Source of the DNA: a virus
Virus record (IMG/VR): IMGVR_UViG_3300042197_004109
Location: 1 to 38,513 of that record
DNA length: 38,513 nucleotides
Direction: 5' to 3' (one strand)
The position numbers and the translations under genes are program-made. Below, piece after piece: positions 17,343 through 38,495 of this stretch. The notes beneath the pieces were generated by a model, which was not told where the DNA came from, did no database searches, and was given only the letters and a program-made list of their open reading frames with translations. The first letter of the stretch is position 1. Every line of letters starts with the position of its first letter.

Positions 17343-18878
17343 CTAGTCAAAAAGATTGTTGAACTGCGTGCGTGCGTTGCGCGTTTTCTTGCCTTTGAAT
17401 CCGCGTGTGCCCACGATCTCCATCCAGTAGGAATCGTAGTGCTCGATGATGGCTTCAGCTGAGGCACGGTCCGGAGCAGCAAAGATGGCTTCCACGATGT
17501 GTTCGAAATAGGCATAGTCGCCGCCCTGCCACTGCATCATGGCCGGATGCTCACCACGATCGAATCTCTGATTGGCCTCTTGTACTGCTGTGATATGCAT
17601 CCAAACATTGTGACCCATGAGCAAGGCATACGAGAAACTGTCCCATGAAGTCCGACCCCACTTGCCATTTTTGTTGACATCGGGTAGCACCGAATACAAA
17701 TTGGGATCCTGGAAGTTCTCGTCATCGAGTACCACACCGGGCTTGGCCACACCGGGCTTGTAGATGCAGATGTCGCGCATGGTCAGCATGTCACTGATTG
17801 GCGACTCTTGCCAGCGCGGATAGATTCCATCTGCTACGACTCCGTGGCTCCATTTTCTTGTATCGGTAGCGTAGCGTTTGTCATCGGCCGAAGGAGCCAT
17901 GCGGTAGCTCCACTTGTCGTCGTGGGGGAACACGTTTTCGAAATAGACCTGTCCGTTGGCAGTGGCCAAGAACGGACTGGCGCAGTCAAAGCTGATAGTA
18001 AAACTGGGATTGACATATTTCCTCACGGCTCGTTGTATAACGGTCAACAGCACTGCCCATTCCAGCTTGGAAGTGCCCAGAAAGTGCATCCAGTCGTGCA
18101 GACCCGGCTCTAAGAGATTGTCATAGCGCAAGGCTACCAGGCGCCGCAGCACCAGATGCACATCGCACATGTTCTGTCCACCCATGGCCCAGCCATCAAA
18201 GTGTCGGTCAGGATAGACACGAGGATCGCAGTAGTGCTTCATGGTGTCATACCATTGGTCCGCCGAAGCGTGATTGTCGCCTTGCAGCACGTTCAAGAAT
18301 CTGGCACCACCATTGTCTCGGCCACGACGATGGGCGATGAAATATTCATTGTTGTACTTGGTTGCCGCCACAGCCTCGGCCAGGGTGGTGATCTGGCAGG
18401 CATTCCGAGCCTTTTCGTCGTGTATGACCCAGGTGGGTATGTCTAGGATCATGCCATAATCTGACACATTGTCCAGCCAGTTCAACACCAGCTCGCGTTT
18501 TTTCTGTGCTTTGGCACACCCCGAACCAGCACGCCAGTCGCCTTCCCAGAGGCCTTTGGCGATCTGGAAGCCGCCTGAATCACCCAGTATGAATGTGCCA
18601 GGCTCACGATTCCTGACCATGTCCTCGCTCCAGTCCTGCTTGGCAAGATCAAGATTGGCATGCCCGCCGGAATACAAGCTCCAGCGATAGGGAAACAGGG
18701 CTCGTTGGCTGTTGAGCCAGTTCATCTGTTCCATGTCTGTGAGCCCCGCAGGGAAACGTGCGGGATCCACATAGGCCTCATTTCTCTGCTTGCCTATGAA
18801 CGTGGCGTAGAAGCCCGAAATGGCCGGCAGGAAGATGGCATAGTCTTGCTGTTGGCTGGTAAGGTCGTGTTGTGTCAC
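17343..18878 (-). CDS. tRNA-guanine-transglycosylase-like enzyme (candidate DpdA, DNA deazaguanine inserter)
   Basis: TGT enzymes exchange guanine for a 7-deazaguanine; phage DpdA proteins do this in DNA. The 511-residue protein has the TGT barrel motifs in order: FILGDSGGFQIAKG with Asp100 as general base, MILDIPTW (143-150), FLNVLQGDNH (194-203), DGWAMGGQN (228-236, the 'G.A.GG' loop), MHFLGTSK (264-271) and ISFDCASPFLATANG with Asp298 as nucleophile. The canonical C-terminal zinc motif CxCxxC is not visible. Start is GTG overlapping the clamp stop (GTGA). FolE, QueD and QueE lie downstream on the same strand, which supports a DNA-modification role over tRNA modification. Confident in fold, moderate on target. 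Confidence 0.82.
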   Translation of the reverse strand: MTQHDLTSQQQDYAIFLPAISGFYATFIGKQRNEAYVDPARFPAGLTDMEQMNWLNSQRALFPYRWSLYSGGHANLDLAKQDWSEDMVRNREPGTFILGDSGGFQIAKGLWEGDWRAGSGCAKAQKKRELVLNWLDNVSDYGMILDIPTWVIHDEKARNACQITTLAEAVAATKYNNEYFIAHRRGRDNGGARFLNVLQGDNHASADQWYDTMKHYCDPRVYPDRHFDGWAMGGQNMCDVHLVLRRLVALRYDNLLEPGLHDWMHFLGTSKLEWAVLLTVIQRAVRKYVNPSFTISFDCASPFLATANGQVYFENVFPHDDKWSYRMAPSADDKRYATDTRKWSHGVVADGIYPRWQESPISDMLTMRDICIYKPGVAKPGVVLDDENFQDPNLYSVLPDVNKNGKWGRTSWDSFSYALLMGHNVWMHITAVQEANQRFDRGEHPAMMQWQGGDYAYFEHIVEAIFAAPDRASAEAIIEHYDSYWMEIVGTRGFKGKKTRNARTQFNNLFD

Positions 18879-23590: not shown

Positions 23591-23610
23591 TGACAAAGTG
23601 GCGCTTGTCA
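23591..23610 (-). terminator. Hairpin between radical SAM gene and DsbA-like gene
   Basis: An inverted repeat, TGACAAG and CTTTGTCA on the minus strand with one bulged base and a 5-base loop (CGCCA), overlaps the radical SAM stop codon. It is followed by an A/T-rich stretch but no clear T run. It may slow or end transcription from the upstream unit, or protect an mRNA end. Confidence 0.35.
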
Positions 23611-24711
23611 ACGACTTTGAGTCTTTTGATAAAATTGCCCCCAGTGCAGTGTGCGTCTCCAGTCGGTGCCACGTTTGGTGTCCAATTGATCAAGGTACTG
23701 CAGGAAGGTGTGTTCATGCATGAAAAGCTGCCCCGCGGTGGGGCGTTGATCCAGGGCCGGTAGTAGCTGTGCCAGATCCTGATAGGCCGCCAGTCTTTGC
23801 TGTACGGAATCCACATACTGATCTGGGATCACTGCAGGCGCAAAATAGGGCCGGTGATTGACCTGGAAATGTACCTGCAGGCCGCCATCGCGTTCACGCA
23901 CGAACTCAATGACATCGGCCAGCTCCCAGAGATTGTAGTTGCTGGCCACACTGATGAAACCGATCTTGAGGTGTGGCAAGGCATTGCGTAGTTCAAAAAA
24001 TCTATCAATGTTGTTGACTACTTGTGACCAATCGCAGGGCCATCTGATCAGTTCGGCCGCAGCGCTGGTAGCGTCAAGGCTGATCACAAGATCAATGGCT
24101 CTGACCTGCTGCCAGCGTTCTAGCACACGTTGATCAGGAAAAAAAGTGGCATTGGTATTGTAGCTGATGTGTAACTGACTCAGCGGTGCAGATTCAGCAT
24201 AGATATCCAGCATGCGCAGGTGTTCGGTGGTCATCAAGGGTTCGCCGCCAGTGAAATGCATCTGGTAAATGTTGCTGTGATCCAGTCTACGGAACAGGGC
24301 CAGCTTGTCTTCGAAGCTGTAGTCTTGATCTCTGAGCCCTTCTTGTTTGGCCCAGGTACTGGAGCTGTAGCTGCTACACATGATGCAGGCTAGATTGCAT
24401 ATGTTCTGTGTGGTTATGTCCACACGGTTGAGCTCCACACGCAGGTCTGGCTCGTGACCGAGATTGCTGAAATATCTGCGGCTGGGTGGATTCTGTTGTT
24501 CCTGCCGCCAACAGTTCACGCAGGCCGGCGCTGGTTGATCTGCGATGGCGGCTTGACGCTGCTGATCTAGAAATGAGTCGGCGGCAAAGTTGAAATCATT
24601 GGCTCGCACTGGCTCGGTGAGGCTGGCACAGCAAGGACTTACCAGAACCTGTCCCGAGTTGGTGCTGCGTATGTGCAGAGTGCGGAATTGATCTCTACAG
24701 TAGTAGTTCAA
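23608..24711 (-). CDS. Radical SAM protein with N-terminal auxiliary cysteines (twitch/SPASM-like)
   Basis: The radical SAM core has C105xxxC109xxC112 (ICNLACIMCSSY), HFTGGEPLMT and downstream barrel strands (LHISYNTNATFF, AIDLVISLDATS, KIGFISVASNYN). Before it, residues 24-70 have VSPCCASL (C27, C28) and ACVNCWRQEQ (C64, C67), the cysteine arrangement of an auxiliary cluster placed N-terminal to the core, which I recall in 'twitch domain' proteins of phages and marine bacteria. The family modifies peptides or small molecules; target unknown. The start is TTG overlapping the upstream stop (TTGA), with AGGT upstream; no other start precedes the conserved region. Translationally coupled to the 309-aa partner. 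Confidence 0.82.
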   Translation of the reverse strand: MNYYCRDQFRTLHIRSTNSGQVLVSPCCASLTEPVRANDFNFAADSFLDQQRQAAIADQPAPACVNCWRQEQQNPPSRRYFSNLGHEPDLRVELNRVDITTQNICNLACIMCSSYSSSTWAKQEGLRDQDYSFEDKLALFRRLDHSNIYQMHFTGGEPLMTTEHLRMLDIYAESAPLSQLHISYNTNATFFPDQRVLERWQQVRAIDLVISLDATSAAAELIRWPCDWSQVVNNIDRFFELRNALPHLKIGFISVASNYNLWELADVIEFVRERDGGLQVHFQVNHRPYFAPAVIPDQYVDSVQQRLAAYQDLAQLLPALDQRPTAGQLFMHEHTFLQYLDQLDTKRGTDWRRTLHWGQFYQKTQSR

Positions 24712-27643: not shown

Positions 27644-27844
27644 TTAGGTTATTTTCTGTACGTTGGTGACGATGCTATCCGTGCCATATTGGGCTTGTAG
27701 CAAGAGCCGGGCCATGGCCGGACTCTTGGCAAACACAGCCACATCGATGCTGGTAGAGTAGTCGGGATTTTTCACACGCACTCGGGCCGAATAAACATCA
27801 AAGCCAGGTGCCACGCTTTCGATCACAAATTCTCCGGCTCTCAT
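27644..27844 (-). CDS. Small conserved phage protein, 66 aa
   Basis: The protein reads FVIESVAPGFDVYSARVRVKNPDYSTSIDVAVFAKSPAMARLLLQAQYGT, an alternating beta-alpha pattern with a short helix in 'MARLLLQAQYG'. I recall a similar 'VKNP.Y...V.V.A..P..AR.LL.AQYG' pattern in small proteins of marine T4-like phages. ATG overlaps the HAD gene stop (ATGA). Function unknown. Confidence 0.6.
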   Translation of the reverse strand: MRAGEFVIESVAPGFDVYSARVRVKNPDYSTSIDVAVFAKSPAMARLLLQAQYGTDSIVTNVQKIT

Positions 27845-28644
27845 TTCTTTTTCCCGCTTTTCATATTAGCGCACCAGTGATACATCCGGCCGCGCTCGCC
27901 ACCATATTTTTTTGCTCGTGCTCGCAAGTCTGTGACACTGCCTTTGCACGATGCTCCACTGCGTTTCACACGCCCGGGTCGGCTCCGGCCTTTGACCCGG
28001 CCATCGGCAAAGTTTTCATTGGTGTGATCTGATGGGGTGGTTTCTCGAACGCCCACACCAGTCCTATGATATTCCGCGGCCTGGCCCGAAGGATCCACAT
28101 GCCAGGCATAGAATCGGCTCCAAGGATGGTCTTGGGCCAGGCTCAGGAACGCATTGAGATTGGGCACTGAATCATCGTACATTATGACCTTGTCATAGTG
28201 TGTCTTGCCCAAGAGATGCCGGAGTATGATCTTTTTCTTTTCCTCAGTAGCGGCCGGGATATTCAAGTTGCCGGCACGATACACATGCACCTTTGACATG
28301 TCTATGCCGTACTGCCGGAACGTATCCAGGAACACTTCGCGGTCATTGAAGTCACTGCGAGCCGTGAGCATTATGACTCGATTACCAGTGGCGATATCCT
28401 GTTTGAGCCGACGGATCATTCCCGGGATGGGACGGGCCTGGGTGTAGAACTCTCGGGCATCACGGAATCGACCAAAGTCAAATTCTTCGCCGGGCTGCAG
28501 CTGATAGTGGGTGAAATCATGGCTGTTGAGCTGTTTGACCACACGGCCGTCTCGCACCACGTTGACCAAGGTATTGGTGTTCACGAGGGTGTTGTCGATG
28601 TCGAAGATCACCAATTTAGAGTTGTCAAATTCACGCGATCGCAC
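27841..28644 (-). CDS. HAD-type phosphatase (T4 Pnkp phosphatase-like) with conserved C-terminal domain
   Basis: The 267-residue protein has KLVIFDIDNTLVN with D15xD17xT, TARSDF (motif II), EEKKKIIL with the motif III Lys, and VIMYDDSVPN (motif IV). That is the HAD pattern used by the 3'-phosphatase domain of polynucleotide kinase and by phage phosphatases. The C-terminal tail SGASCKGSVTDLRARAKKYGG...YHWCANMKSGKKK is a separate small domain I recall at the end of various marine phage proteins. The start is GTG at 28644 with GAGGA upstream, preferred to an earlier ATG deep inside the previous gene; it gives MRSREF, similar to related N-termini. Substrate is unknown. Confidence 0.75.
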   Translation of the reverse strand: MRSREFDNSKLVIFDIDNTLVNTNTLVNVVRDGRVVKQLNSHDFTHYQLQPGEEFDFGRFRDAREFYTQARPIPGMIRRLKQDIATGNRVIMLTARSDFNDREVFLDTFRQYGIDMSKVHVYRAGNLNIPAATEEKKKIILRHLLGKTHYDKVIMYDDSVPNLNAFLSLAQDHPWSRFYAWHVDPSGQAAEYHRTGVGVRETTPSDHTNENFADGRVKGRSRPGRVKRSGASCKGSVTDLRARAKKYGGERGRMYHWCANMKSGKKK

Positions 28645-29104
28645 GATCTGTGTCCTCACTGGCAGCGATGCCGTCATAGATCTGGCTCAGGGGTATGCCA
28701 GCCATCACATAGCCTCGGCTCACGGTACGCACATATGTGGTACTGGGCATGCGATCTTTGATGGCCGCGTGCGTGGCCGGTGTCATGTAGTAGATCACGG
28801 CTTCGTATCTTTGACCATCATGCCATACCGGCACGGTTTTTCGACCATAAAGGTTGGGATAACCCTCCACAGTGTCCAGTGTGGCCAGCATGCCCGATGG
28901 CAGGCTCCATAATACACCTTGCACTGTGCTGCCTGACTCGGGTACCACGTCGGCATAGTGCCAGAATCTCAGGGCATGATTCCTCAGTTCTGCACGCCCC
29001 ACTCGGCGGGCCTCGGGCATGTGCCTGGGATCTGTGAGCATGCCATAGGCAAAATAGTACTGTGGCTGCTGGCCAGCTTCGGTGATCATGTCATGCATTC
29101 TCAT
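28631..29104 (-). CDS. Gamma-glutamylcyclotransferase-like protein
   Basis: The 157-residue protein has YYFAYGMLTDPRHM, the 'YG(S/M)(L/N)' substrate loop, then GRAELRNHALRFW, VQGVLWSLPSGMLATLDTVEGYPNLYGR (the 'LD..EG....Y.R' motif with the putative catalytic Glu) and ALIYYMT-like beta strand (AVIYYMTPA). The fold is that of GGCT/AIG2-like proteins, which cyclise gamma-glutamyl amines. In phages these are common but functionally undefined. The ATG overlaps the stop of the large amidoligase-like gene in ATGA. Confidence 0.75.
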   Translation of the reverse strand: MRMHDMITEAGQQPQYYFAYGMLTDPRHMPEARRVGRAELRNHALRFWHYADVVPESGSTVQGVLWSLPSGMLATLDTVEGYPNLYGRKTVPVWHDGQRYEAVIYYMTPATHAAIKDRMPSTTYVRTVSRGYVMAGIPLSQIYDGIAASEDTDRAIA

Positions 29105-31683
29105 CGCATCTCCGGTACTACGTCTACTTCTTGACCCACCAGATCAGGTCTGTTGCGGCCCAACCAACTGGCAGCAAATCTGTTGGCATCTGCTTGGCTG
29201 TTGCCTATGCCCGAGAAACGATGCAGTTCACGACCTTGACCATCACGGATTTGCCAACGGCCAGTGAACTCGCCCTGGCTCTGCTGTGCTGCCTGCTGAC
29301 GCTGTCGTTGGATATCCAAGGTTGATCCTGGTATGGGTTCAGGTTCTGTGGTCAATCGTGTCACGGTGATGTCCGACGCATCCAGATCGGGTCTAGAGCG
29401 AGCGATCCAGTTCTGGGCATATCTTTCGGCCCCGTCCTGGCTTTGCATGGCTTCTGGAGGTCTGAGAGTGGTCACCAAAAACCCTTCACGGTCACGCACG
29501 GACCACTCACCGGTGGGTTCGCCCTGTGTGGTCTGTCGTGGATCATTGGCGATGCGGAAACCCGGTGGACCATCGGTGGTGTCCTGTTGATCACGCTGTT
29601 GCTGGCGTAGCTGATCCTGTTGCCATTGCTGTCGTTCAGCATCCGTGGCGATTCGAGCACGGGTCTCGGGATTGTCGAACATGCGATCTCGCTGGACGGC
29701 TTTGGCAACGGCCTCGGCCTGGCTGCGGGCCACGACCCAGCGCTGGCTGCTGTGATGATTCACACGCCACAGTTGCTCACCCACGTCCCGTGTGCTGCGT
29801 GTCACACGCTGGGCCAGAGCAGCACGTCGGCTCTTGGGTTTTTCGTCCCGAGGTTCCGCCACTTTCACACGCACACCAAAGTCAATGCCTTTGCCTGACC
29901 ATTTCTGCTGCGCTATCTCCATGGCTTCTTGATCGCTTGAAGCCGGGAAAGTGTCGATCACCCGTCGGCTGTCTCGATCGCCGCGTGTGCCTGTGCTGCG
30001 ATCAAACACTTCGTATTCCCCTGTGGCAGTATACAGCGGCACATCCTCGACATCGCCGCGTTCAGCGGCCAGCACTTTGTCGGCCCATTCGCGCTTGAGT
30101 TCCTGGCCAGATATCATGCCACTGGAATATTTGGCAAACAACCGGGCAAACGGATCCTCTTCATCGGTCTCTATGCGGGTCTGATAGCGTGTGTCTCGGG
30201 CAGTTTTCACAGTTTCTGCGGAACGATAGCCCGACAACAGTTTGTAGAACTTTTTGGCATATTCTTTGCGTTCGGCACTGGGATCACCGGCTATGGTCAT
30301 GGCGCGAGCAAATCGCAGCATGGTATCTCGGGCAGTTTTCACAGACTCCTGATCGTCCAGCCAGTCATTGCCGGGACCACGGAACTCGATGTAGGTGCCT
30401 TTGCCGGTGTCTTTGACATGTGCCGATGTGTACTTGCTGCCGCCCACACCGCCCTGTACATAGCGTCCGGCCAGCTCGATGAGATTCTTTTTCATCAGCT
30501 CCATGGCTGCGGCGATGTCAACACCGCCTGAATATACACCGGGGCTAGGCTGTGTGACTTCTCCAACGGATCTGCGTTTGGATCGAACTAGATCCGAAAT
30601 CTTTTCATAGGCCGAACGTGTGTAGCTGTTGGCACTGCGACCAAATTGATCCAGCACATATTGATCGCCCATGAACAGGATCAATTTCACATAGTCCACT
30701 TCACTGACAGGTATGCTGATGTTCATGTGTAGGCCCGTGCTTGAGTTGGTGTAAACACCGCGGCTGCGTGCCCAGGCCGAAATAGCATCAAATTTGGCCA
30801 AGGCTTCGGGCAAGGGCAAGGGCGGGCTGATCAGTTCAATGCCAGCATCTTCGTCGTTGCTGGGCTCGAGGCTTGAATCAGGTTCCATGATCCACGAGTT
30901 CGCAGTGCGTTTGGTACTGTGATAGCCCTGGCTCACCCGCACCGGCATGTCTACCACACCAGCGATCTCATCGGCCCAGGTAGACCAGTCTATGTTGCCC
31001 GAATCTCTGTCGCTGCGAGTGGAACGATAGTAGGGCCAGTCCAAATTCCAAGCGCCCTCGACGTCGCTCATGTAGCGATAATTTTCACGCAGCCAATCAC
31101 CTTCGTCCACGTTGGATCTATAGTCGTCCATGAGGCTTTCGTAGGCCTGGTCATACCAATCGCCGCGATCCTGGTACTGCGATTCGGCTTCTTCGCGGAA
31201 CAGCTTGACGGCCTGTTCAGTGATCGCATCATCATCGGCATCATCCGCCAGTTCCTCGCGAGCCTGATCCCGATATTGATCTTCCACATCGGGCCAGATG
31301 TTTTCTTCCATCCAATCCACAAATTCGCTTTCGCCCACATTGTCATCGAATGATTCTACGGCCCAGTCCATGAATTCTTCATAGAGATCTCTTCGCAGCC
31401 GTTCAGCAGTGCGAGGGGCGATACCATTGTCGCCGCCTTGGAAAAATTCCACTACCCCATCAATGCTGTAGGTACGCTCGTCCATGTCATAGTCGGGTTC
31501 AAAGTCTTCATCATCGTCGTCGTCGTTGCCAGTGTCGGGGAAGATCAACTCATACTCGATGCCCACTCGAATGCCCTGGGCCGCAGGACTATCGGCCCAA
31601 CGACGCAGTTCGCCAGGACTCATGGCCACTTCAACAAGTGTTTGATCGTGTTCGAAAACATTGCGGAATTCTCGGTATCTCAT
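29101..31683 (-). CDS. Large amidoligase-like protein with C-terminal repeats, 860 aa
   Basis: The N-terminus has VGIEYELIFPDTG (residues about 38-50), the GxExE start of COOH-NH2 amidoligase-fold enzymes, then a very acidic segment. The middle has ELISPPLPLPEALAKF, STGLHMNISIPVSEVDYVK and YIEFRGPGND, further amidoligase-like motifs (histidine in 'GLHMN', Glu in 'EFRGPG'). The C-terminal third is a string of small modules: two related repeats GEWSVRDREGFLVTTLR...RYAQNWIARSRPDLD and GRWQIRDGQGRELHRF...RFAASWLGRNRPDLV, plus Gln-rich linkers. Amidoligases form amide bonds between carboxylates and amines; ATP-grasp-like. Its gene overlaps the cyclotransferase-like gene, a pairing chemically reminiscent of gamma-glutamyl metabolism. 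Substrate unknown. Confidence 0.68.
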   Translation of the reverse strand: MRYREFRNVFEHDQTLVEVAMSPGELRRWADSPAAQGIRVGIEYELIFPDTGNDDDDDEDFEPDYDMDERTYSIDGVVEFFQGGDNGIAPRTAERLRRDLYEEFMDWAVESFDDNVGESEFVDWMEENIWPDVEDQYRDQAREELADDADDDAITEQAVKLFREEAESQYQDRGDWYDQAYESLMDDYRSNVDEGDWLRENYRYMSDVEGAWNLDWPYYRSTRSDRDSGNIDWSTWADEIAGVVDMPVRVSQGYHSTKRTANSWIMEPDSSLEPSNDEDAGIELISPPLPLPEALAKFDAISAWARSRGVYTNSSTGLHMNISIPVSEVDYVKLILFMGDQYVLDQFGRSANSYTRSAYEKISDLVRSKRRSVGEVTQPSPGVYSGGVDIAAAMELMKKNLIELAGRYVQGGVGGSKYTSAHVKDTGKGTYIEFRGPGNDWLDDQESVKTARDTMLRFARAMTIAGDPSAERKEYAKKFYKLLSGYRSAETVKTARDTRYQTRIETDEEDPFARLFAKYSSGMISGQELKREWADKVLAAERGDVEDVPLYTATGEYEVFDRSTGTRGDRDSRRVIDTFPASSDQEAMEIAQQKWSGKGIDFGVRVKVAEPRDEKPKSRRAALAQRVTRSTRDVGEQLWRVNHHSSQRWVVARSQAEAVAKAVQRDRMFDNPETRARIATDAERQQWQQDQLRQQQRDQQDTTDGPPGFRIANDPRQTTQGEPTGEWSVRDREGFLVTTLRPPEAMQSQDGAERYAQNWIARSRPDLDASDITVTRLTTEPEPIPGSTLDIQRQRQQAAQQSQGEFTGRWQIRDGQGRELHRFSGIGNSQADANRFAASWLGRNRPDLVGQEVDVVPEMR

Positions 31684-31796: not shown

Positions 31797-32927
31797 ATGC
31801 GCAGCATACAAAAAACAACGATTGCGCTGGTTTTCGTCGCCGTGGGCACTGTGTCACCAGCGCAGGAAACCACCAATGTGAACACCACCAACACAAGTAC
31901 ATCTACGAGTACGGTGAATTCTACCAACACCAACAACAATAATACCACCAGCACCAGTACGAGTACGGTGAACTCCACTAACACCAACAACAACAACAAT
32001 GTCAACACCAGCACCAGCACCAACGTGAATACCAACAACAACATCAATTCGGGCACAGTGACCTACAACAACAACAATGTAAACTCGGGCACAATGACCT
32101 ACAACAACAACAATGTGACTACCGCGGTCAACACCAACAACAACAACAATGTGACCACCAGCACCAATGTGAATACCAACAACAACATCAATTCTGGTAC
32201 CATGACCTACAACAACAACAATGTCAACACCAGTACCAGTACAAACACCAACGTCAACACCAACAACAATGTCAACACTGGTGACATGACCAACCGGAAT
32301 ATCAACACTTCCACCAGTACCAGTACAAACACCAACGTCAACACCAACAACAATGTCAACACTGGTGACATGACCAACCGGAATATCAATACCAGCACTT
32401 CAACGTCAAATTCGAATTCGACTAGTACCAACACCAATTCCAATCAAAATGTCAATGTCAACACCGGTGACATGACCAATCGCAACCTCAATGATACGCG
32501 CATCGAACAAACTGTAAAATCGCCACCACCCACGGCTGTAGCACCTTCTATGATGAGCGGTGGTGGCAACGATCTCTGTACCACAGGAACATCAGGTGCG
32601 GTACAAACACAGATCTTTGGTGTCAGTGCCGGTGGCACAGTGCGTGATCTCAATTGCGAAAGATTGAAGCTGTCAAAGACTCTCTATGACATGGGCATGA
32701 AAGTGGCAGCCGTGGCCACCATGTGCCAGGATCGCCGGGTGTTTGATGCCATGATGGCCGCGGGCACACCTTGCCCTTATGAAGGAAAAATTGGGTCCGA
32801 AGCTCGTGAACTGTGGGCTGCCAACCCTGATCGCATACCCGTGCTGGTAGCAAAGGAAGAAGATGACACCTATAAGAAACTGGGCCTTGGCACTCTGCTT
32901 GGCCTTATCGTCGGTCGGGTATTCTAA
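31797..32927 (+). CDS. Secreted Asn/Thr-rich repeat protein, 376 aa
   Basis: The N-terminus MRSIQKTTIALVFVAVGTVSPAQE has a basic start, hydrophobic core and AxQ-like cleavage site (signal peptide). From about residue 24 to 240 the chain is almost only Asn, Thr, Ser and Val in VNTNNN, TSTSTN and NNVNTGDMTNRNINTST patterns. The longest exact tandem unit is 76 bases recurring at an 84-base period at 32230 and 32314. The C-terminal third is normal: a disulphide-capable region with CTTGTSGAVQTQIFGVSAGG, LNCERLKLSKTLYDMGMKVAAVATMCQD and GTPCPYEG, then LGLGTLLGLIVGRVF as a hydrophobic end. It is probably an outer-surface or lysis-associated protein. Function unknown. Confidence 0.8.
   Translation: MRSIQKTTIALVFVAVGTVSPAQETTNVNTTNTSTSTSTVNSTNTNNNNTTSTSTSTVNSTNTNNNNNVNTSTSTNVNTNNNINSGTVTYNNNNVNSGTMTYNNNNVTTAVNTNNNNNVTTSTNVNTNNNINSGTMTYNNNNVNTSTSTNTNVNTNNNVNTGDMTNRNINTSTSTSTNTNVNTNNNVNTGDMTNRNINTSTSTSNSNSTSTNTNSNQNVNVNTGDMTNRNLNDTRIEQTVKSPPPTAVAPSMMSGGGNDLCTTGTSGAVQTQIFGVSAGGTVRDLNCERLKLSKTLYDMGMKVAAVATMCQDRRVFDAMMAAGTPCPYEGKIGSEARELWAANPDRIPVLVAKEEDDTYKKLGLGTLLGLIVGRVF
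32230..32389 (+). repeat. Tandem coding repeat, two copies of 84-base period
   Basis: A 76-base stretch beginning CCAGTACCAGTACAAACACC occurs at 32230-32305 and again at 32314-32389 without any change visible to me. It encodes the TSTNTNVNTNNNVNTGDMTNRNIN block. A shorter third copy with a few changes follows at about 32453. Confidence 0.85.
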
Positions 32928-34557
32928 CGCGCAGGAAACTGCGGCACAGTTGGATCCCAGCCAGACCTACACCACTGGCAACCTCGTGGTGCCTACTACA
33001 ACCACATCGGGCTCGACCTGGACCAATGGTGTGTATCAAGATGCTTTGACCTGTTGGGGCGGAGGACAACCTGGTTACTGCGGGCCCAACCCCATTGTGC
33101 GTCCCGACGGTAACATCAACTTCAGCTATGGTTGGACTGATCTTTATCAGCAACAACAGATCGCTGCTGTGTTGCCTTATTCAGGTACCGGCCTTAGAGT
33201 CAATGGCTACAACTTCAATTTCATGGCCAAGAACGGCAACGGCTGGGACGACGGACGCACAGATCTCTTGTACGCTTATGTGCAATTTGATGGTCCCAGC
33301 GGCACGGTGCTGAACAATACTGCCAATCTTTCCTATGGATTTAACTGGACGAGAATCACTCTAGATCAGACCTTTGCCACACCCTATGCCACCGCAGACA
33401 TCACTTCAGTGCGATATGGATTTGTGGGACAGGACAACAACTTCTGGGCCGGACCTTATGGGCCTGAAATCTACGATGTCAACTTCAGCCTGCGATATAG
33501 TGTGGATCCTTGTGTGAGCGATCCGCTTTACAGTTCCGCATGCCCGGGTTACTTGGCTGCGTTGCAGGCTCTGATACCAGTGAACGAACCTGTAGCCGAA
33601 TCCTTGCCTGTTGAGACTACCACAGCCGCCGCTGCGATTGAAACTGCTCCAACCTCAGCATCAACCACTGGATCAGAGCCGACTGTTCAGTCTGAGCTCA
33701 CGAGAGTCGCTGAATCGGCGCCGGAATCCCCCGGAGAGAAAAAAGCAGGTGCTTCACTGTCTACTATACTCAGCATAGTGCGCAGTGAACAAGATCGAGT
33801 GGCCAGTGTAGAAAGTCGAGTGGTCGAAGCCGCTAACGAACAGGCGCAGGCCGCCACTGATCGTGTCACTGAGCAGGCCGTGGCCGTGGCCGAGTCTGCA
33901 TCAATGATCAGTGCAATCCAGAACATGGAGTCCCAGTCCACCGCTGCTACCGCAGCCACAGTGTCAGCCGGCAACACAAGCAGCTCCGTGATAATGGATG
34001 TGTCGCAGAATCTTGTGCGGTCAGACGCGTCTGATTCTGCTGTGGTAGCCAATGCTGACAGCCAAGGTGCTGCGCTGGGATCAGGACTTCAAGTGCCGCG
34101 ACCTTTCATAGATGTGTTCAATGTGGCAGAATCAACGTCATTGATTTCAAATGAGCCAACTAGTGCTCGTGTTAGTGCTCTGTTGGGTGCTGCTGCTCCG
34201 GTCACCGAAGCGGACCTAGCGGAACCGATGCGATTCCGAGTTTCCGCTACTACACCTGCTGATAATTTCATGGAAGCTGCTCAACCTGCGATTGACTCCG
34301 GTACCACTGCCAGTGATAGGCCTGTGAATCGTCGCGTGGCCGACAATGATGCTGCAGCCGGTGGCGTGAGTCTAGCGGCCATGGCCCAGCAACCACCGGG
34401 TTATGCACAGTACAACGTGGCCTTGCAGGACGCTGCATTTTATGAACCACGCGAGATCTATCGGGGTCAAAGAGTGGTGGACAACGCTCGAGCTCTGCGT
34501 CAGCTGAGCAGTGATGCCCGGCACAAAGAGATGGTAGAACAACAATACAGGAGATAA
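32863..34557 (+). CDS. Secreted protein with conserved globular domain and Ala/Ser-rich tail, 564 aa
   Basis: The signal peptide MTPIRNWALALCLALSSVGYSNA|QE is clear. Residues about 40-230 form a beta-rich domain: DALTCWGGGQPGYCG, FSYGWTDLYQ, SGTGLRVNGYNFNFMAKNGNGWDDGRTDLLYAYV, YGFVGQDNNFWAGPYGPEIYD and CVSDPLYSSACPGY. I recall this block in a family of marine phage proteins of unknown role. The C-terminal half is Ala/Ser/Thr/Glu-rich, low complexity with a helix (EQAQAATDRVTEQAVAVAES). It overlaps the previous gene by 65 bases, with AAGGAAG before the ATG. It could be a virion surface, lectin-like or secreted interference protein; not known. Confidence 0.75.
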   Translation: MTPIRNWALALCLALSSVGYSNAQETAAQLDPSQTYTTGNLVVPTTTTSGSTWTNGVYQDALTCWGGGQPGYCGPNPIVRPDGNINFSYGWTDLYQQQQIAAVLPYSGTGLRVNGYNFNFMAKNGNGWDDGRTDLLYAYVQFDGPSGTVLNNTANLSYGFNWTRITLDQTFATPYATADITSVRYGFVGQDNNFWAGPYGPEIYDVNFSLRYSVDPCVSDPLYSSACPGYLAALQALIPVNEPVAESLPVETTTAAAAIETAPTSASTTGSEPTVQSELTRVAESAPESPGEKKAGASLSTILSIVRSEQDRVASVESRVVEAANEQAQAATDRVTEQAVAVAESASMISAIQNMESQSTAATAATVSAGNTSSSVIMDVSQNLVRSDASDSAVVANADSQGAALGSGLQVPRPFIDVFNVAESTSLISNEPTSARVSALLGAAAPVTEADLAEPMRFRVSATTPADNFMEAAQPAIDSGTTASDRPVNRRVADNDAAAGGVSLAAMAQQPPGYAQYNVALQDAAFYEPREIYRGQRVVDNARALRQLSSDARHKEMVEQQYRR

Positions 34558-34558
34558 C

Positions 34559-35092
34559 ATGTCCAAGAACATCGACGAACAAGTAGATAAACTGGAAGCT
34601 GCTGTTGATCCCAACACCGTGATCAGCATCGGGGGTATCAATTTCACACCCGCAAAGCTGATGATAGCAGGTGGTATCCTTTCTTCAGTGTTGGGCGGAC
34701 TCTACGGAGCATTTGAAGTCTACAAAGACTACATGAGCATGAAAGAAGCCATTGAGACTTATGTGGCACCCGACCTCGGCGCCATCAATGAAAAGCTGTC
34801 GGTACTGGAAAAGCAGATGGAAAATGTGAAATCCAGCGTGGGTGAAGCTGCCGACTACACCAGCGACATCAAGAACGATCTCAAGAGCGACATACGCCGG
34901 TTAGAGAACGTGGTCGAAGGAGTAGAGCGTAGTAACAAACAACTGCAACGCGAGACTCTTGCCGATGTCAAGGCCATGCGCGACGAGCTGAGAGACACAC
35001 GCAGAGAAGTAGAACGCGAAATGCGCCAGCAGAAGGCCGAACTGGAAAAGAAACTCAAAGAAAGCATCGATAACCCTTTGGCCGGAAAATAG
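34559..35092 (+). CDS. Membrane-anchored coiled-coil protein, 177 aa
   Basis: The N-terminal half holds one hydrophobic segment (LMIAGGILSSVLGGLYGAFEVY, residues about 33-54). The C-terminal half is a long charged coiled coil (INEKLSVLEKQMENV, then RRLENVVEGVERSNKQLQ and REVEREMRQQKAELEKKLKES). The start ATG has AGGAGAT upstream, one base after the previous stop. A single TM plus long periplasmic or cytoplasmic coiled coil resembles an inner-membrane spanin or tape/adapter-like protein, but no family is named. It sits with holin-like and lipoprotein genes. Confidence 0.72.
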   Translation: MSKNIDEQVDKLEAAVDPNTVISIGGINFTPAKLMIAGGILSSVLGGLYGAFEVYKDYMSMKEAIETYVAPDLGAINEKLSVLEKQMENVKSSVGEAADYTSDIKNDLKSDIRRLENVVEGVERSNKQLQRETLADVKAMRDELRDTRREVEREMRQQKAELEKKLKESIDNPLAGK

Positions 35093-35093
35093 C

Positions 35094-35612
35094 ATGAACA
35101 TCGCGGAGATACTGAACTCCGCGAATGCTGCGTTTGAGCAGGTCAAGCGCGTGTCGGCCATGACCAACGATGCTTCGGCCATCATGGGCAATCTCACTGG
35201 TTTCGCAGGTCAGCTGGGAGAACTGAAAAAGGCCCTGACCTTGACAGATCTCCAAGACATCCATCACAAAAGCACCAGTTCACGGCAGTCGCCACAGTCC
35301 GATACCGAGCAGGCCATGGCGATCTACACTGCGCGAGTGCGCCTACGTCACATGGAACAAGAACTCTACCACATGTTCCTCTATGGTGATCTCAATCACC
35401 TAGGCCAAGACGGCTACAGAGAATTTGTGCAGATACGCGAAGGCATCGAAGCCCAGGCACGACAAGCTGCCGAGGCCGAACAGGCCTGGGCGCTAAACGA
35501 AGAAGCTGACGAAGAGTTTCTCAAACAGCTCAAGATCATAGGTGGTGCTGCATTCGCCAGCATTGGCGCTGTGGTGGGCCTGGCCCAGCAGATCAAAGAT
35601 CTTCTTTCATAA
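35094..35612 (+). CDS. Helical protein, 172 aa, of the envelope/lysis-like cassette
   Basis: The N-terminal part (MNIAEILNSANAAFEQVKRVSAM, NLTGFAGQLGELKKALTL) and C-terminal part (IREGIEAQARQAAEAEQAWALNEEADEEFLKQLKI) are helical. The last residues, IGGAAFASIGAVVGLAQQIKDLL, are a moderately hydrophobic helix that might sit in a membrane. YTARVRLRHMEQELYHMFLYGDL is a central conserved-looking block. It starts one base after the previous stop. No domain is recognised. Confidence 0.7.
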   Translation: MNIAEILNSANAAFEQVKRVSAMTNDASAIMGNLTGFAGQLGELKKALTLTDLQDIHHKSTSSRQSPQSDTEQAMAIYTARVRLRHMEQELYHMFLYGDLNHLGQDGYREFVQIREGIEAQARQAAEAEQAWALNEEADEEFLKQLKIIGGAAFASIGAVVGLAQQIKDLLS

Positions 35613-35622
35613 TAAATATTCC
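35611..35622 (+). promoter_or_regulatory. Late-type box AATAAATA before the lipoprotein gene
   Basis: AATAAATATTCC lies 17 bases before the lipoprotein ATG, ahead of its AAGGA site. The ten bases TAAATATTCC recur on the minus strand at 38496-38505 before another gene, which supports a shared regulatory element. Confidence 0.42.
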
Positions 35623-35638
35623 AAACAAGGAACTTTCT

Positions 35639-35845
35639 ATGAAAAAGTACCTCTTAGGCGCTGCTGTTTTACTGGCTTTGTCTGGCTGCAATGGTGATTA
35701 TCAATACTATCGATATCCCTGCCAGGATCCTGCCAACTGGGATCGCGACGAGTGCAAACCACCCATCTGTGAAGTCAGTCGCACCTGTCCTGAACACATC
35801 TTTCCGCGTGAAGAATCGCAATGTCTCAAAGGAACCAAGAAATGA
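35639..35845 (+). CDS. Small cysteine-rich lipoprotein, 68 aa
   Basis: The N-terminus MKKYLLGAAVLLALSGC is a class II signal peptide with lipobox LSGC, so Cys17 is probably lipidated in the envelope. The mature part has five further cysteines (C28, C39, C44, C50, C62) and the pattern YRYPCQDPANWDRDECKPPICE, RTCPEHIF. I recall close relatives in T4-like phages of marine bacteria. ATG preceded by AAGGA. Its stop overlaps the holin-like gene start (ATGA). It could be an outer-membrane spanin subunit or a superinfection-exclusion lipoprotein, neither of which is shown. Confidence 0.82.
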   Translation: MKKYLLGAAVLLALSGCNGDYQYYRYPCQDPANWDRDECKPPICEVSRTCPEHIFPREESQCLKGTKK

Positions 35846-36189
35846 CCACCAAGACCAACAACAGGTATACCGAAGAAGAGTTGATGGTCCGGCTCAAGGT
35901 ATTCATTGGCGTGTGCCTGGCCTTGACCCTGATCGGAATCATGTTCACCGTGCTCTACAGCATCATGTTTGTGACCCAGCCTCTCAATGCCATTTCGCCC
36001 ATTGACGCTAAGTTCTTTGAGTTGATCGTGCCTGTGGCCACGTTCCTCACTGGTACCTTGTCAGGCATCATGCTGGCCGGCACTGGTAAGGATGCAGCCA
36101 TGTCTGGCGCCAATCAAGCTGCCGCGGCCATGAAAAAACAGATGGACAAAGAAAAAGAAGAACCGCAGGAAGCCAAGCCTACGGTTTAG
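35842..36189 (+). CDS. Holin-like membrane protein, 115 aa
   Basis: Two hydrophobic segments, VFIGVCLALTLIGIMFTVLYSIMF and FFELIVPVATFLTGTLSGIMLAG, separated by a short polar loop, with a charged, helical C-terminus (MDKEKEEPQEAKPTV). That topology and the 'SGIMLAGTGKDAA' end are those I associate with small phage holin-type or antiholin-type proteins. ATG at 35842 overlaps the lipoprotein stop (ATGA). An earlier in-frame start 21 bases upstream is less likely. It ends by overlapping the leftward gene at its stop (11 bases). Pore function is inferred. Confidence 0.65.
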   Translation: MTTKTNNRYTEEELMVRLKVFIGVCLALTLIGIMFTVLYSIMFVTQPLNAISPIDAKFFELIVPVATFLTGTLSGIMLAGTGKDAAMSGANQAAAAMKKQMDKEKEEPQEAKPTV

Positions 36190-37579
36190 GGCGCAGCAGT
36201 GCAGGCCGACCTTGGCTGTCGGTCTGCAAACCCAGCTTGTTGGCCTGACGGCCAGTTTCTCCAGGGCGCACATCTTGCGTCAATGCCATCTCAAACCTAG
36301 GATCGTTGCGTTCGGCCTCAGTGGGAATGTAGCCTGAGCTTTCCACAAATATTTCCGGCTTTTGTTGAGCGAAATCACGCATGATCTCGCCGGCTCGAGC
36401 ATTGGCTTCGTTTTCGTATTTGCTGCCAGTTTCACCGGCATCGGAAGGCAGGGCCTGCGTGGTGTTCTGCTGATGATGTACCAGTTCGTGTGCGAGGGTA
36501 CGCAGTACATCCATGATGTGTCGATCGGCGAGACTCACATGTAGCCGTCCTGAATCCATGTCAAACTGACCAAAACTGCCGGTGCGCTGGCTCCAGGCCG
36601 GATCGCGATGCAGCACGATAGTTGGCAGGCTTTTGAGACCTAATTTTTGGCGGCATAGGCCAAGGAATTCGCGTATGATCGAACTGTGGTCTTGATCTTC
36701 CAGGAACATCTTGGTGCTAGGGTTCACACCATCGGGTGTGGCTCCGGTTTCCTGAACGCTTTCTCCGCCACCACCGTCGCCCCCGCTCTCACCGCTGTCA
36801 GAGATTCCATAGCCAAAGCCAGGATACCAATAGCCACCATAACCGTAGCGTGTGCGGCGCTTGCGACGTTTCTTTTCCATGAGGCTGAGCTCTTGATCCC
36901 GTGCCCGATTCCTGGCATCATAGAGCCCCTTGATCAGGCCTTGGGCTCGCAGCAGCTTGAATGCGAGATTTTCTGGACCAAATTCGCCAGTGTCTGCCAG
37001 TCCAGCCTGCCGCATCTGCTTGACTCGGGCGATCATGTCTTCTATCGCGCTGCGATCTCCGCTTTGGATCGCAGATTCGATCCGGTGTCCCAGATCCTCG
37101 TACTTGTGGCGCACGCTGTCATCGTCGATGTTGGCTCTGCGACGCCGCGGCACAGAGATCCAATCCCCGTCACGCACTGAATAGATGCCCTGGCTCACAT
37201 GCGGTTGATCTGCAGGCTGCACATAGAGTTCAACATCGGCGCCGCCAATGCGGATATCATGTTGTTGATTGTACTGGAATTTTTTGGCATCAAACAGCTC
37301 ACGGTACACCGCATCATCGGGCACACGAACTACCAGGTGCAGATCTATGTCTGAATGCGGTGTGTAGCTGTAGGCAGCATTGCTGCCGCTGATGGTGATG
37401 TCCTGGAGATCAAGGTCAGGTACACCCAAGAATTCTTGAAAATCCGCTGCTGTGGCCAGCAGCTTTTCTCTCACTTCGGGACGAAGATGCTCGTCCAGAC
37501 TCCACAATCTCGGGTTCAACTGATCGTGGAATCGGACAGCATCTCCTAGGTCATACGTTTCTAACTCATGAATGTTCAT
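36179..37579 (-). CDS. Nucleotidyltransferase-zinc metallopeptidase fusion protein
   Basis: The 466-residue protein joins two domains. Residues about 60-85 have ISGSNAAYSYTPHSDIDLHLVV, the pol-beta nucleotidyltransferase pattern GS...DxD (G65, S66, D77, D79). Residues about 285-400 carry a zincin: LAHELVHHQQN with H364ExxH368, and YENEANARAGEI with E389 or E391 as third ligand. Between them is a Gly/Ser/Tyr-rich linker (RYGYGGYWYPGFGYG, SGGDGGGGES) and a basic stretch (KKRRKRRTR). Such single-chain combinations occur in marine phages by my memory. Both sites look intact. Possible roles are nucleotidylating a host target and cutting another; not known. Start ATG is 6 bases from a TAAATA box. 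Confidence 0.82.
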   Translation of the reverse strand: MNIHELETYDLGDAVRFHDQLNPRLWSLDEHLRPEVREKLLATAADFQEFLGVPDLDLQDITISGSNAAYSYTPHSDIDLHLVVRVPDDAVYRELFDAKKFQYNQQHDIRIGGADVELYVQPADQPHVSQGIYSVRDGDWISVPRRRRANIDDDSVRHKYEDLGHRIESAIQSGDRSAIEDMIARVKQMRQAGLADTGEFGPENLAFKLLRAQGLIKGLYDARNRARDQELSLMEKKRRKRRTRYGYGGYWYPGFGYGISDSGESGGDGGGGESVQETGATPDGVNPSTKMFLEDQDHSSIIREFLGLCRQKLGLKSLPTIVLHRDPAWSQRTGSFGQFDMDSGRLHVSLADRHIMDVLRTLAHELVHHQQNTTQALPSDAGETGSKYENEANARAGEIMRDFAQQKPEIFVESSGYIPTEAERNDPRFEMALTQDVRPGETGRQANKLGLQTDSQGRPALLRPKP

Positions 37580-37584
37580 GAGTG

Positions 37585-37592
37585 TATTTATT
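37585..37592 (-). promoter_or_regulatory. AATAAATA box 5 bases before start codon
   Basis: The minus strand reads AATAAATA, then CACTC, then ATG of the nucleotidyltransferase-peptidase gene. It lies in the 14-base gap after the glycosyltransferase gene. No Shine-Dalgarno precedes the ATG. Confidence 0.35.
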
Positions 37593-37593
37593 G

Positions 37594-38472
37594 CTAGGCT
37601 GCGGGGGCAGGGTCGCTGGAGGCCAGCTCTTGTGTTTCCACGGGTGTGTCAGGTGCTGCGGCAGCAATTTCGTGCGGAGTAGTAGCTTTCATGCTCATCA
37701 CAGCATCTGCGGCCTGCCCATTGGTGCGTGGCAACATGCCGGCCACGGCCAACTCATGCAGGTCGTTGTAGAGCTTTTCGTGTGTGCCAAAGTCAAACAC
37801 ATAGGTGCCGACGTGCTTGAGCAGCACACGCTTGTCAATGAACACTTGGCCGCCGAGATCACGCCAGTTCTCGCAGAATGTCCAGTCTTCGCTGTAGTAA
37901 CGACCTTCGCGCACCGCAGTGTCAAAGTAGGTCTTCATGTGTGGATCCAACTCTTTGGGCAGGCCGATGTCATTGTTGAAAGGTCGAACTGCAGGATGAG
38001 CGTTGAGCTTTTCAAACACTTCACGCTTGATCAGCAGGAATCCTGTGCCGGTCTTGGTCACTTCCACCAGGCCATTTTCGCCATCGGGTTGACCGGGGAT
38101 ACCATTCACGCACCATTTTACAGGCAGGCTCTTCATGGGATATAGACCACCAATCACGTCTTTGTCGTGATTAAGCAAGGTCAAGAGATGCCAGGGTTCC
38201 CAGCCAATGTCAGCGTCGATGAACATGAGGTGTGTGCTGCCTTCGGTGGTCAAGAACTTGGATGTCAGGGTGTTCCTGGCTCGCGAAATCAAACTCTCAT
38301 TGGTCATGGTTTCCACAGTCCAATCGATGCCCAATTGGCGGCAAGTGTTGGCCCAGCGTATGAAGCTCATGAACGTTTGCTCGGACAGCATGCCACCATA
38401 ACAGGGCATGCAGATGTGTACTCGTGTCTTCCTGAGATACTCAAGGTTGACTTGGATTTGGGTTTCGGCCAT
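37594..38472 (-). CDS. Glycosyltransferase-like protein (GT-A fold), 292 aa
   Basis: The protein has VHICMPCYGGMLSEQTFMSFI as first strand, RARNTLTSKFL, and LMFIDADIGWEPWHLLTLL with the metal-binding DxD (D-A-D). Later VIGGLYPMK, GTGFLLIKREVFEKL and YYSEDWTFCENWRDLGGQVFID are typical donor/acceptor-site motifs of GT2-like phage enzymes. A Pro/Ala/Thr-rich tail ends the chain. ATG at 38472 is favoured over a TTG one codon earlier and has GGAG just before it. A TAAATATTCC box is about 24 bases upstream. The acceptor is unknown; with other glycosyltransferases in the window it may serve the same decoration pathway. Confidence 0.75.
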   Translation of the reverse strand: MAETQIQVNLEYLRKTRVHICMPCYGGMLSEQTFMSFIRWANTCRQLGIDWTVETMTNESLISRARNTLTSKFLTTEGSTHLMFIDADIGWEPWHLLTLLNHDKDVIGGLYPMKSLPVKWCVNGIPGQPDGENGLVEVTKTGTGFLLIKREVFEKLNAHPAVRPFNNDIGLPKELDPHMKTYFDTAVREGRYYSEDWTFCENWRDLGGQVFIDKRVLLKHVGTYVFDFGTHEKLYNDLHELAVAGMLPRTNGQAADAVMSMKATTPHEIAAAAPDTPVETQELASSDPAPAA

Positions 38473-38495
38473 CAAGGTCTCCAGTGTGAAATGTA

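Follow-up and report, generated by a model that had tools for sequence, protein, structure and literature searches.

A conserved phage nucleotidyltransferase-zincin protein with features that may point to delivery in the virion

The stretch of DNA analyzed here (IMG/VR virus record IMGVR_UViG_3300042197_004109, positions 1 to 38,513; hereafter the window) carries at 36179..37579 on the minus strand an ATG-started open reading frame (ORF) for a protein of 466 amino acids, which we call the core. According to our analysis, it consists of a nucleotidyltransferase (NTase) with a helical domain, a linker, a zincin domain, and a conserved tail, and all parts of the gene given below lie on the minus strand. 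Residues 1 to 237 (36869..37579) comprise, in the predicted structure, an NTase of the polymerase beta (pol-beta) type (about residues 20 to 147) and a four-helix domain (residues 153 to 237). They are followed by a linker predicted to be disordered (residues 238 to 295; 36695..36868), with the candidate [LIVMF]xE sites VQE277 and FLE294, by the zincin domain (residues 296 to 411; 36347..36694), assigned from predicted structure and fold matches, and by a tail module (residues 414 to 466; 36182..36340) that reads SSGYIPT...DPRF...ANKL.... The NTase motif G65-S66-x10-D77-I-D79 is located at 37343..37387, and E117 in VELYV, a putative third metal-binding acid, at 37229..37231; the zincin motif HELVH (residues 364 to 368) is located at 36476..36490, and E389, the putative third zinc ligand, at 36413..36415. 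A preliminary description of the window had noticed both motifs in this one chain and regarded both sites as complete, but it overlooked the tail.

GSx10DxD, starting at residue 65, and HELVH each occur once in the core, with Glu389 placed 21 residues beyond the last His. When the core's own residues were shuffled 100,000 times, GSx10DxD was obtained in 2.2%, HExxH...E in 2.8%, and both together in 0.06% of cases. All 105 aligned NTase domains share G65, S66, D77, D79, H81, and E117 without exception; they form a selected non-redundant set (less than 0.6 shared 6-mers with longer sequences kept) that includes the window and 104 of 116 listed references. H364, E365, H368, and E389 are invariant in 47 of 47 aligned NTase-zincin cores, selected in the same way and comprising the window and 46 of 47 listed relatives, among which cores with more than 120 residues separating NTase from zincin are excluded. 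Since the catalytic residues are unchanged throughout both alignments, we consider the motifs to be beyond chance. Besides H81, the residues K100, W140, K159, R190, K208, and R211 are invariant across the phage NTase family, while in distant standalone NTases from four isolated cyanophages and Caulobacter phage Cr30, GG replaces GS and both D-x-D and E117 are kept. In 52 non-redundant cores, selected for carrying NTase, zincin, and tail, an automatic search located the Glu motif of the third ligand in 37 (at a spacing of 21 or 23), and the other 15 have it, recognized by eye, as the variants ENEAH, ENQAH, and EDSAN.

Structure prediction, which the preliminary description had proposed as a check, bears out both sites. 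AlphaFold2 run with 47 sequences gave confident domains at about residues 10 to 237 and 296 to 411, a disordered linker at residues 244 to 295, and a low-confidence tail; the NTase and helical domain modeled alone with 105 sequences reached a predicted local distance difference test score (pLDDT) of 92.1. The linker had also been described as rich in Gly and Tyr, and here the linker itself stands as a low-confidence segment, but this richness is absent from two aligned full-length relatives. For the NTase, the best solved structures in Foldseek are the AAD(9)/AadA adenylyltransferases (E value 6.7e-05, about 14% identity, global TM-scores of about 0.3 or less), whose AadA matches reach across the helical domain too, and MNT antitoxins are found lower among the matches; all of these share the pol-beta fold with the core at low identity and low global TM. 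In VIA, Z values for the NTase do not exceed 7.5, with AadA-type structures at about 6.3, under the level of a confident match. Matches of the helical domain to HscB and RRF were ignored, since the VIA lists for the NTase lie below Z 8 and contain many helical bundles. DrrA, a protein AMPylase, gave only marginal profile matches (E values 0.063 and 0.14). The zincin matched jannalysin/selecase in Foldseek (probability 1.0, E value 0.019) and Wss1 in VIA (Z 8.5), and its model, with HExxH and a downstream Glu on a minimal zincin fold, resembles zincins of the SprT/Wss1, selecase/jannalysin, and IrrE types. Judged by motif, third acid, and predicted fold, the N-terminal domain is a pol-beta superfamily NTase, and residues 296 to 411 are a zincin by HExxH, third ligand, and modeled fold. 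Two complete-looking sites in one chain therefore stand, given the predicted folds and the invariance of the third acid and the third ligand.

Searches of Pfam, NCBIfam, and PHROGs returned only weak or unnamed family matches for the core. The PHROGs family phrog_36119, of unknown function, spans core residues 14 to 232 (E value 7e-37), so that the NTase and helical domain represent a known but unnamed phage family; its model of 247 positions stops short of the zincin and the tail. The zincin had no significant sequence-family membership in profile searches, with DUF6782 (E value 0.045) under the cut-off. Four IMG/VR loci align to core residues 1 to 462 at 53% identity, and three of them encode one identical ORF of 1,509 amino acids. 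The protein family is already in databases, since Foldseek against BFVD retrieved as members, at 43 to 44% identity, the UniProt entries A0A6J5M1C6 and A0A6J5P8X5 from uncultured Caudovirales phage, described there only as 'Amidoligase enzyme' and 'Uncharacterized protein', respectively. A scan of genome contigs gave three weak matches, by matched residues to the NTase region only.

The tail, which measures about 53 residues across the family and begins SGYIP[TS]..., gave no match in phage records at an E value of 1 when used alone as query, and a further scan with it retrieved 122 relatives. NTase, zincin, and tail occur in that order within one ORF in at least 75 ORFs, at least 52 of them non-redundant; the ORFs of the 52 selected cores span 489 to 2,561 residues between stops, the window copy being the shortest. 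Among the matches listed (the best 80 of 122 for the tail, of 587 for the NTase, and of 589 for the zincin), the non-redundant architectures are NTase-zincin-tail-amidoligase (64), NTase alone (49), NTase-zincin-tail (22), zincin alone (16), NTase-tail (12), and a few others. By a profile made in this analysis, 39 of the 52 cores have an amidoligase behind the tail, and Pfam Amidoligase_2 was matched in 8 of 14 relatives scanned and in one of two further main ORFs (locus L003, not L005). Extra domains found in one or two members each are M48, cytidine deaminase, NUDIX, a second NTase, and LysM with SLT. The NTase and zincin are encoded by separate nearby genes in L136/L137, L159, and L177, and isolated-phage records contain both NTases without zincin and zincins without NTase. 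Twelve NTase proteins without zincin end in the tail, which rules it out as a zincin-specific module. An insert resembling SGNH hydrolases (VVVVGDSIA...GTND), named by eye, is present between NTase and zincin in the main ORFs of L049 (residues 281 to 299), L047, and L032.

Upstream of the core, the 52 non-redundant loci have a homologue of phrog_1574 as the first gene (50 loci) or the second (2 loci). In the window this gene lies at 37594..38475 on the minus strand and is glycosyltransferase-like by a sub-threshold Anp1 match. A family of ATP-dependent protease is found upstream in 46 of these loci and one of DnaJ protein in 21; by eye, a cytidylyltransferase-like gene is often near the core, and NUDIX- and deaminase-like neighbors occur. 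T4-type Gp23 was sought in 21 relative records, which may be fragments, and found in nine, and the T4 portal in 10 of the 21, one of them partial; the S77 (gp21-type) prohead protease, sought only in the nine records with Gp23, is present in all nine.

The tail is preceded by a motif that resembles the sites cut by such proteases. [LIVMF]xE ends 0 to 1 residue ahead of it in 71 of 77 distinct copies, against a background of 3.5% per position, and the commonest pattern around the tail is [LIVM]-x-E-[AS]; the candidate site of the core reads F411-V412-E413|S414 (36341..36349). The same motif precedes three unrelated tags in 33/37, 7/7, and 6/6 copies, the 37 being NFADG copies that include one apparently unrelated (FADGN) kept in the count. 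Compared with composition-preserving shuffles, the density of [LIVM]xE is raised in the linkers (z 12.7, 5.8, and 2.7) and lowered in the NTase (z −3.7), zincin (−8.3), and tail (−3.7). At core residues 3 to 5, [LIVMF]xE is found in 35 of the 52 cores, with the start reading MN[IL]xE|L, and the candidate site in the window is I3-H4-E5|L6 (37565..37573). Capsid-targeting-like N termini are carried by 58 of 170 modular neighbors and by 24 of 245 others, and are absent from 52 phrog_1574-type proteins and from 188 conserved upstream genes (c2 to c6); control stretches gave 1 in 2,158. In all nine relatives with gp23, its product reads YLKE|NA at residue 42, and its first 100 residues contain four or five such motifs in all.

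The recurrent tags of neighboring genes in the 52 loci are NFADGK..HWCANMKSG (41 ORFs at 40 loci, near the C terminus in 32 of 43 occurrences), CS.PKGFSQ.AHCAGRKK (17 ORFs; 7 C-terminal, 10 internal), and FLGS.CT.DCSGHRAG (10, all C-terminal). Internal hydrophobic segments with lipobox-like ends (e.g., ASLVGC and AGAPGC) are seen in the main ORFs of L005 (417 to 437), L020 (510 to 528), L022 (488 to 505), and L091 (433 to 450), where they directly follow candidate [LIVM]xE sites, as if cleavage exposed a signal peptide. The standalone zincins of L010, L159, L233, L238, L253, and L254 start in a capsid-targeting-like manner, e.g., MNYKQFLRE and MKVQEILTE, and such starts suggest that solo zincins may be packaged too.

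The core gene is also preceded by a box of the T4 late type. On the minus strand the window reads AATAAATA-CACTC-ATG, the box AATAAATA occupying 37585..37592, with TAAATA starting 11 bp before the ATG and 5 bp between box and ATG, which fits the cyanophage late promoter NATAAATA (PMC2984593). Of the 52 loci, 51 have TAAATA in the 42 bp upstream of the core ATG, and in 47 it starts 10 to 14 bp ahead of the ATG; counted at −16 to −8 relative to the start codon, it occurs in 48 of 52 cores, 0 of 52 phrog_1574-type genes, and 127 of 706 genes overall. In three groups of tail-bearing NTases, it lies within 16 bp upstream in 59/64, 21/22, and 12/12, where Shine-Dalgarno (SD)-like sequences number 1/64, 0/22, and 0/12, and among standalone zincins it precedes 1 of 14; the counts on tail-bearing and standalone groups omit L012, L097, L098, and ORFs with less than 60 bp upstream. 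The region upstream of gp23 was dropped as a readout of late promoters, as the stretch between 250 bp upstream and 150 bp downstream of the frame start contains no TAAATA, and whole head regions were used for calibration instead. Across three head regions of 20 kb, TAAATA shows a strand bias (11/3, 6/0, and 9/1) and is found ahead of structural-region genes, some at −11 to −13; in three of three regions these genes include the portal gene. The whole window contains 11 TAAATA sites, compared with 4.4 expected, a number reached in 1 of 100 shuffles; by position, 10 of the 11 lie on the coding strand no more than 80 bp ahead of the start of a listed gene, such genes including a sugar epimerase gene (box 5 to 10 bp before 12728) and a DNA polymerase gene. 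With the geometry that we take to hold for T4, transcription would start at or beside the core ATG, and since a T4-type late box lies so close to it, the core mRNA would be nearly leaderless.

According to passages of Iyer et al. (2017, PMC5512222), polyvalent proteins are multidomain phage proteins that combine catalytic domains around HExxH zincin domains as a hub, and for which packaging and injection are predicted. The core likewise joins at least two effector-type catalytic domains, NTase and zincin, in one phage protein. However, those passages list the pol-beta NTase among domains restricted to polyvalent proteins of conjugative elements, whereas here it is fused to a zincin in phages, and they credit release to an embedded peptidase, whereas the junctions of the core family resemble prohead-protease sites. 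T4 Alt and the internal proteins IPI-III are further systems for comparison, as described in passages of three papers (PMC5694885, PMC9026906, PMC3012670). Alt is packaged and injected, and gp21 removes from it a short N-terminal and an about 60-residue C-terminal propeptide, by a cut after ITE-6 and the loss of 63 C-terminal residues after LTE-619 (PMC5694885). The start of Alt, MELITE|L, resembles the MN[IL]xE|L of the core, and alt has a late promoter upstream where the core has a late-type box, although the box of the core lies much nearer the ATG; Alt is an ADP-ribosyltransferase, whereas the core is a predicted NTase and zincin. The remark in the preliminary description that no role of this kind was known was too strong, zincin-bearing polyvalent proteins of phages and T4 Alt being close precedents. 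We found no description of this phage NTase-zincin-amidoligase fusion in full-text literature, a body that excludes most subscription papers, and we do not claim its absence from print; passages of a jumbo phage survey (PMC7824862), the only match, do not describe it. For the combination of phage polyprotein, prohead protease, and injection, Iyer et al. were the only match in the same body of literature.

Three observations suggest late expression and processing in the prohead: the T4-late-type box close to the core ATG, the gp21-like [LIVMF]xE directly ahead of the tail, with its raised density in linkers and lowered density in domains, and the capsid-targeting-like N termini of neighbors together with the gp21-type protease in all nine gp23-bearing records. 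Taken together, we see an even chance that the core is an Alt-like, late, virion-delivered two-enzyme core of a polyvalent-type protein, and in most of the relatives retrieved it forms part of a larger protein. In T4-like phages, often jumbo ones, the gene would specify the NTase-zincin core of a modular protein and be transcribed late from the T4-type promoter close to its ATG. While the ORF, its domains and conserved sites, the family architecture, the late-type box, and the site pattern are observations, we infer packaging, cleavage, injection, activities, and substrates as follows: the protein would enter the prohead, a gp21-type prohead protease would trim it at [LIV]xE-like sites that follow residue 5, lie in the linker, and precede the C-terminal tail, and it would pass into the next host with the DNA, like T4 Alt. 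In the host, a protein or nucleotide-like molecule would probably receive a nucleoside monophosphate through the NTase, and the zincin would cut a host protein. The suggestion in the preliminary description of a phage effector gains indirect backing in this way, from the late box, the prohead-type cut sites, and the polyvalent-like architectures. More tentatively, and with odds that we place below even, T4-like jumbo phages may carry a virion-delivered polyprotein system, made of late near-leaderless mRNAs and proteins of up to about 2,560 amino acids, in which prohead-protease sites connect the enzymes (NTase, zincin, amidoligase, deaminase, and others) and exchangeable packaging tags form the C termini, and in which the head protease rather than an embedded peptidase frees the enzymes before ejection; the window would hold one such protein split into two genes. 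If right, this would join T4-style capsid-targeted internal proteins with polyvalent multi-enzyme effectors, which are kept apart in the literature passages cited, it would give a simple sequence criterion (a late box at the ATG together with [LIV]xE ahead of a tag) by which virion-delivered effectors could be sought among large uncultured phages, and it would make phrog_36119 testable.

The main rival, which we regard as rather unlikely, is an intracellular enzyme pair that is never packaged and that modifies or cleaves host or phage proteins or serves replication or nucleotide metabolism, with [LIV]xE as a habit of linkers or a part of the conserved tail. Its case is made by the neighborhood: the standalone NTases of isolated cyanophages and Cr30 adjoin DNA polymerase, clamp-loader, primase, or ribonucleotide-reductase genes, and the fused forms have the ATP-dependent protease, DnaJ, and NUDIX-, deaminase-, and cytidylyltransferase-like neighbors mentioned above. 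Moreover, the strict capsid-targeting pattern of T4-type internal proteins, M[KRN]x1-4[ED][FILM][ILVFTM]xE, is found on 0 of 52 cores. Against an unpackaged pair stand the late-type box and the same cut-site pattern ahead of unrelated tags, and composition-preserving shuffles do not account for the linker sites. Further points count against delivery in the virion. The site and box patterns were chosen after examples had been seen; the third linker shows weak enrichment, and a mild one is also seen in the amidoligase itself (z 2.5); 17 of 52 cores have no [LIVMF]xE at residues 3 to 5, and control proteins of the phrog_1574 type show such a motif within residues 1 to 7 in 13 of 52. The box is found in only 23 of 42 standalone NTases, and the phrog_1574 gene of the window also has TAAATA, 25 to 30 bp upstream; late-type boxes are thus not confined to the core. 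SD-like sequences are uncommon in the head regions too (6/24, 5/17, and 7/20 ORFs), which makes a missing SD weak evidence of a leaderless mRNA. The tail profile gave no match to the C terminus of T4 Alt, so that homology between the two was rejected. In all nine records with both gp20 and gp23, the core lies more than 100 kb from them in linear coordinates, a distance that circular permutation could shorten, and no head genes were identified in the window, a fragment of 38.5 kb.

The zincin might instead cut its own chain at linker and tail; autoprocessing of this kind is proposed for polyvalent zincins, e.g., that of P1 DdrB, in passages of Iyer et al. (2017, PMC5512222), and the zincin of the core does look complete. 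We hold this to be improbable: a same-type motif mostly precedes the tail in the 12 NTase proteins that end in it, and since these have no zincin, a zincin is not needed for the junction. The idea of a self-processing toxin, raised in the preliminary description, found no direct evidence here, and the candidate cut sites resemble those of the phage prohead protease. Least probable, in our opinion, is a small-molecule adenylyltransferase of the AadA/ANT type, acting on antibiotics or metabolites with the zincin as a passenger. It would agree with AAD(9)/AadA as the best solved-structure matches and with one cyanophage copy annotated as an aminoglycoside nucleotidyltransferase, but the identity, global TM, and Z of those matches are low, and the phage family has the further invariant residues listed above.

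The counterpart of the amidoligase part is located elsewhere in the window. An ORF of 860 amino acids at 29101..31683 on the minus strand corresponds to the amidoligase-containing extension that is fused behind the tail in relatives and is a separate gene here: the fused L022 protein covers 99% of it (E value 4e-176) and matches Amidoligase_2 at 850 to 940, and the ORF itself has no Pfam match at an E value of 0.01. By these alignments, the window holds a split form of the fused protein, with core and amidoligase part in two genes; L193 likewise has the amidoligase as its next gene. The two genes of the window are separated by a cassette on the opposite, plus strand (31797..36189). Within it, 31797-32927 (plus strand) encodes a repeat protein (phrog_20531) that is rich in Asn and Thr, has an N terminus resembling a signal peptide, and shares the cassette with other ORFs that by eye look secreted, membrane, or lipoprotein-like. 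Next to the amidoligase gene, 28631..29104 on the minus strand encodes a gamma-glutamyl cyclotransferase (GGACT) with the capsid-targeting-like start MRMHDMITE|A, and 27841..28677, also on the minus strand, encodes an HAD phosphatase-like protein (weak Pfam matches) with the recurrent NFADG tag at its C terminus.

Further away, the minus-strand ORF at 17343-18878 encodes a protein of 511 amino acids without Pfam, PHROG, or NCBIfam assignment. It contains DSGGFQ, which we take to be a signature of tRNA-guanine transglycosylase/DpdA. Together with a QueE-like radical S-adenosylmethionine (SAM) gene at 23608-24711 of the window, it makes 7-deazaguanine modification of DNA possible.
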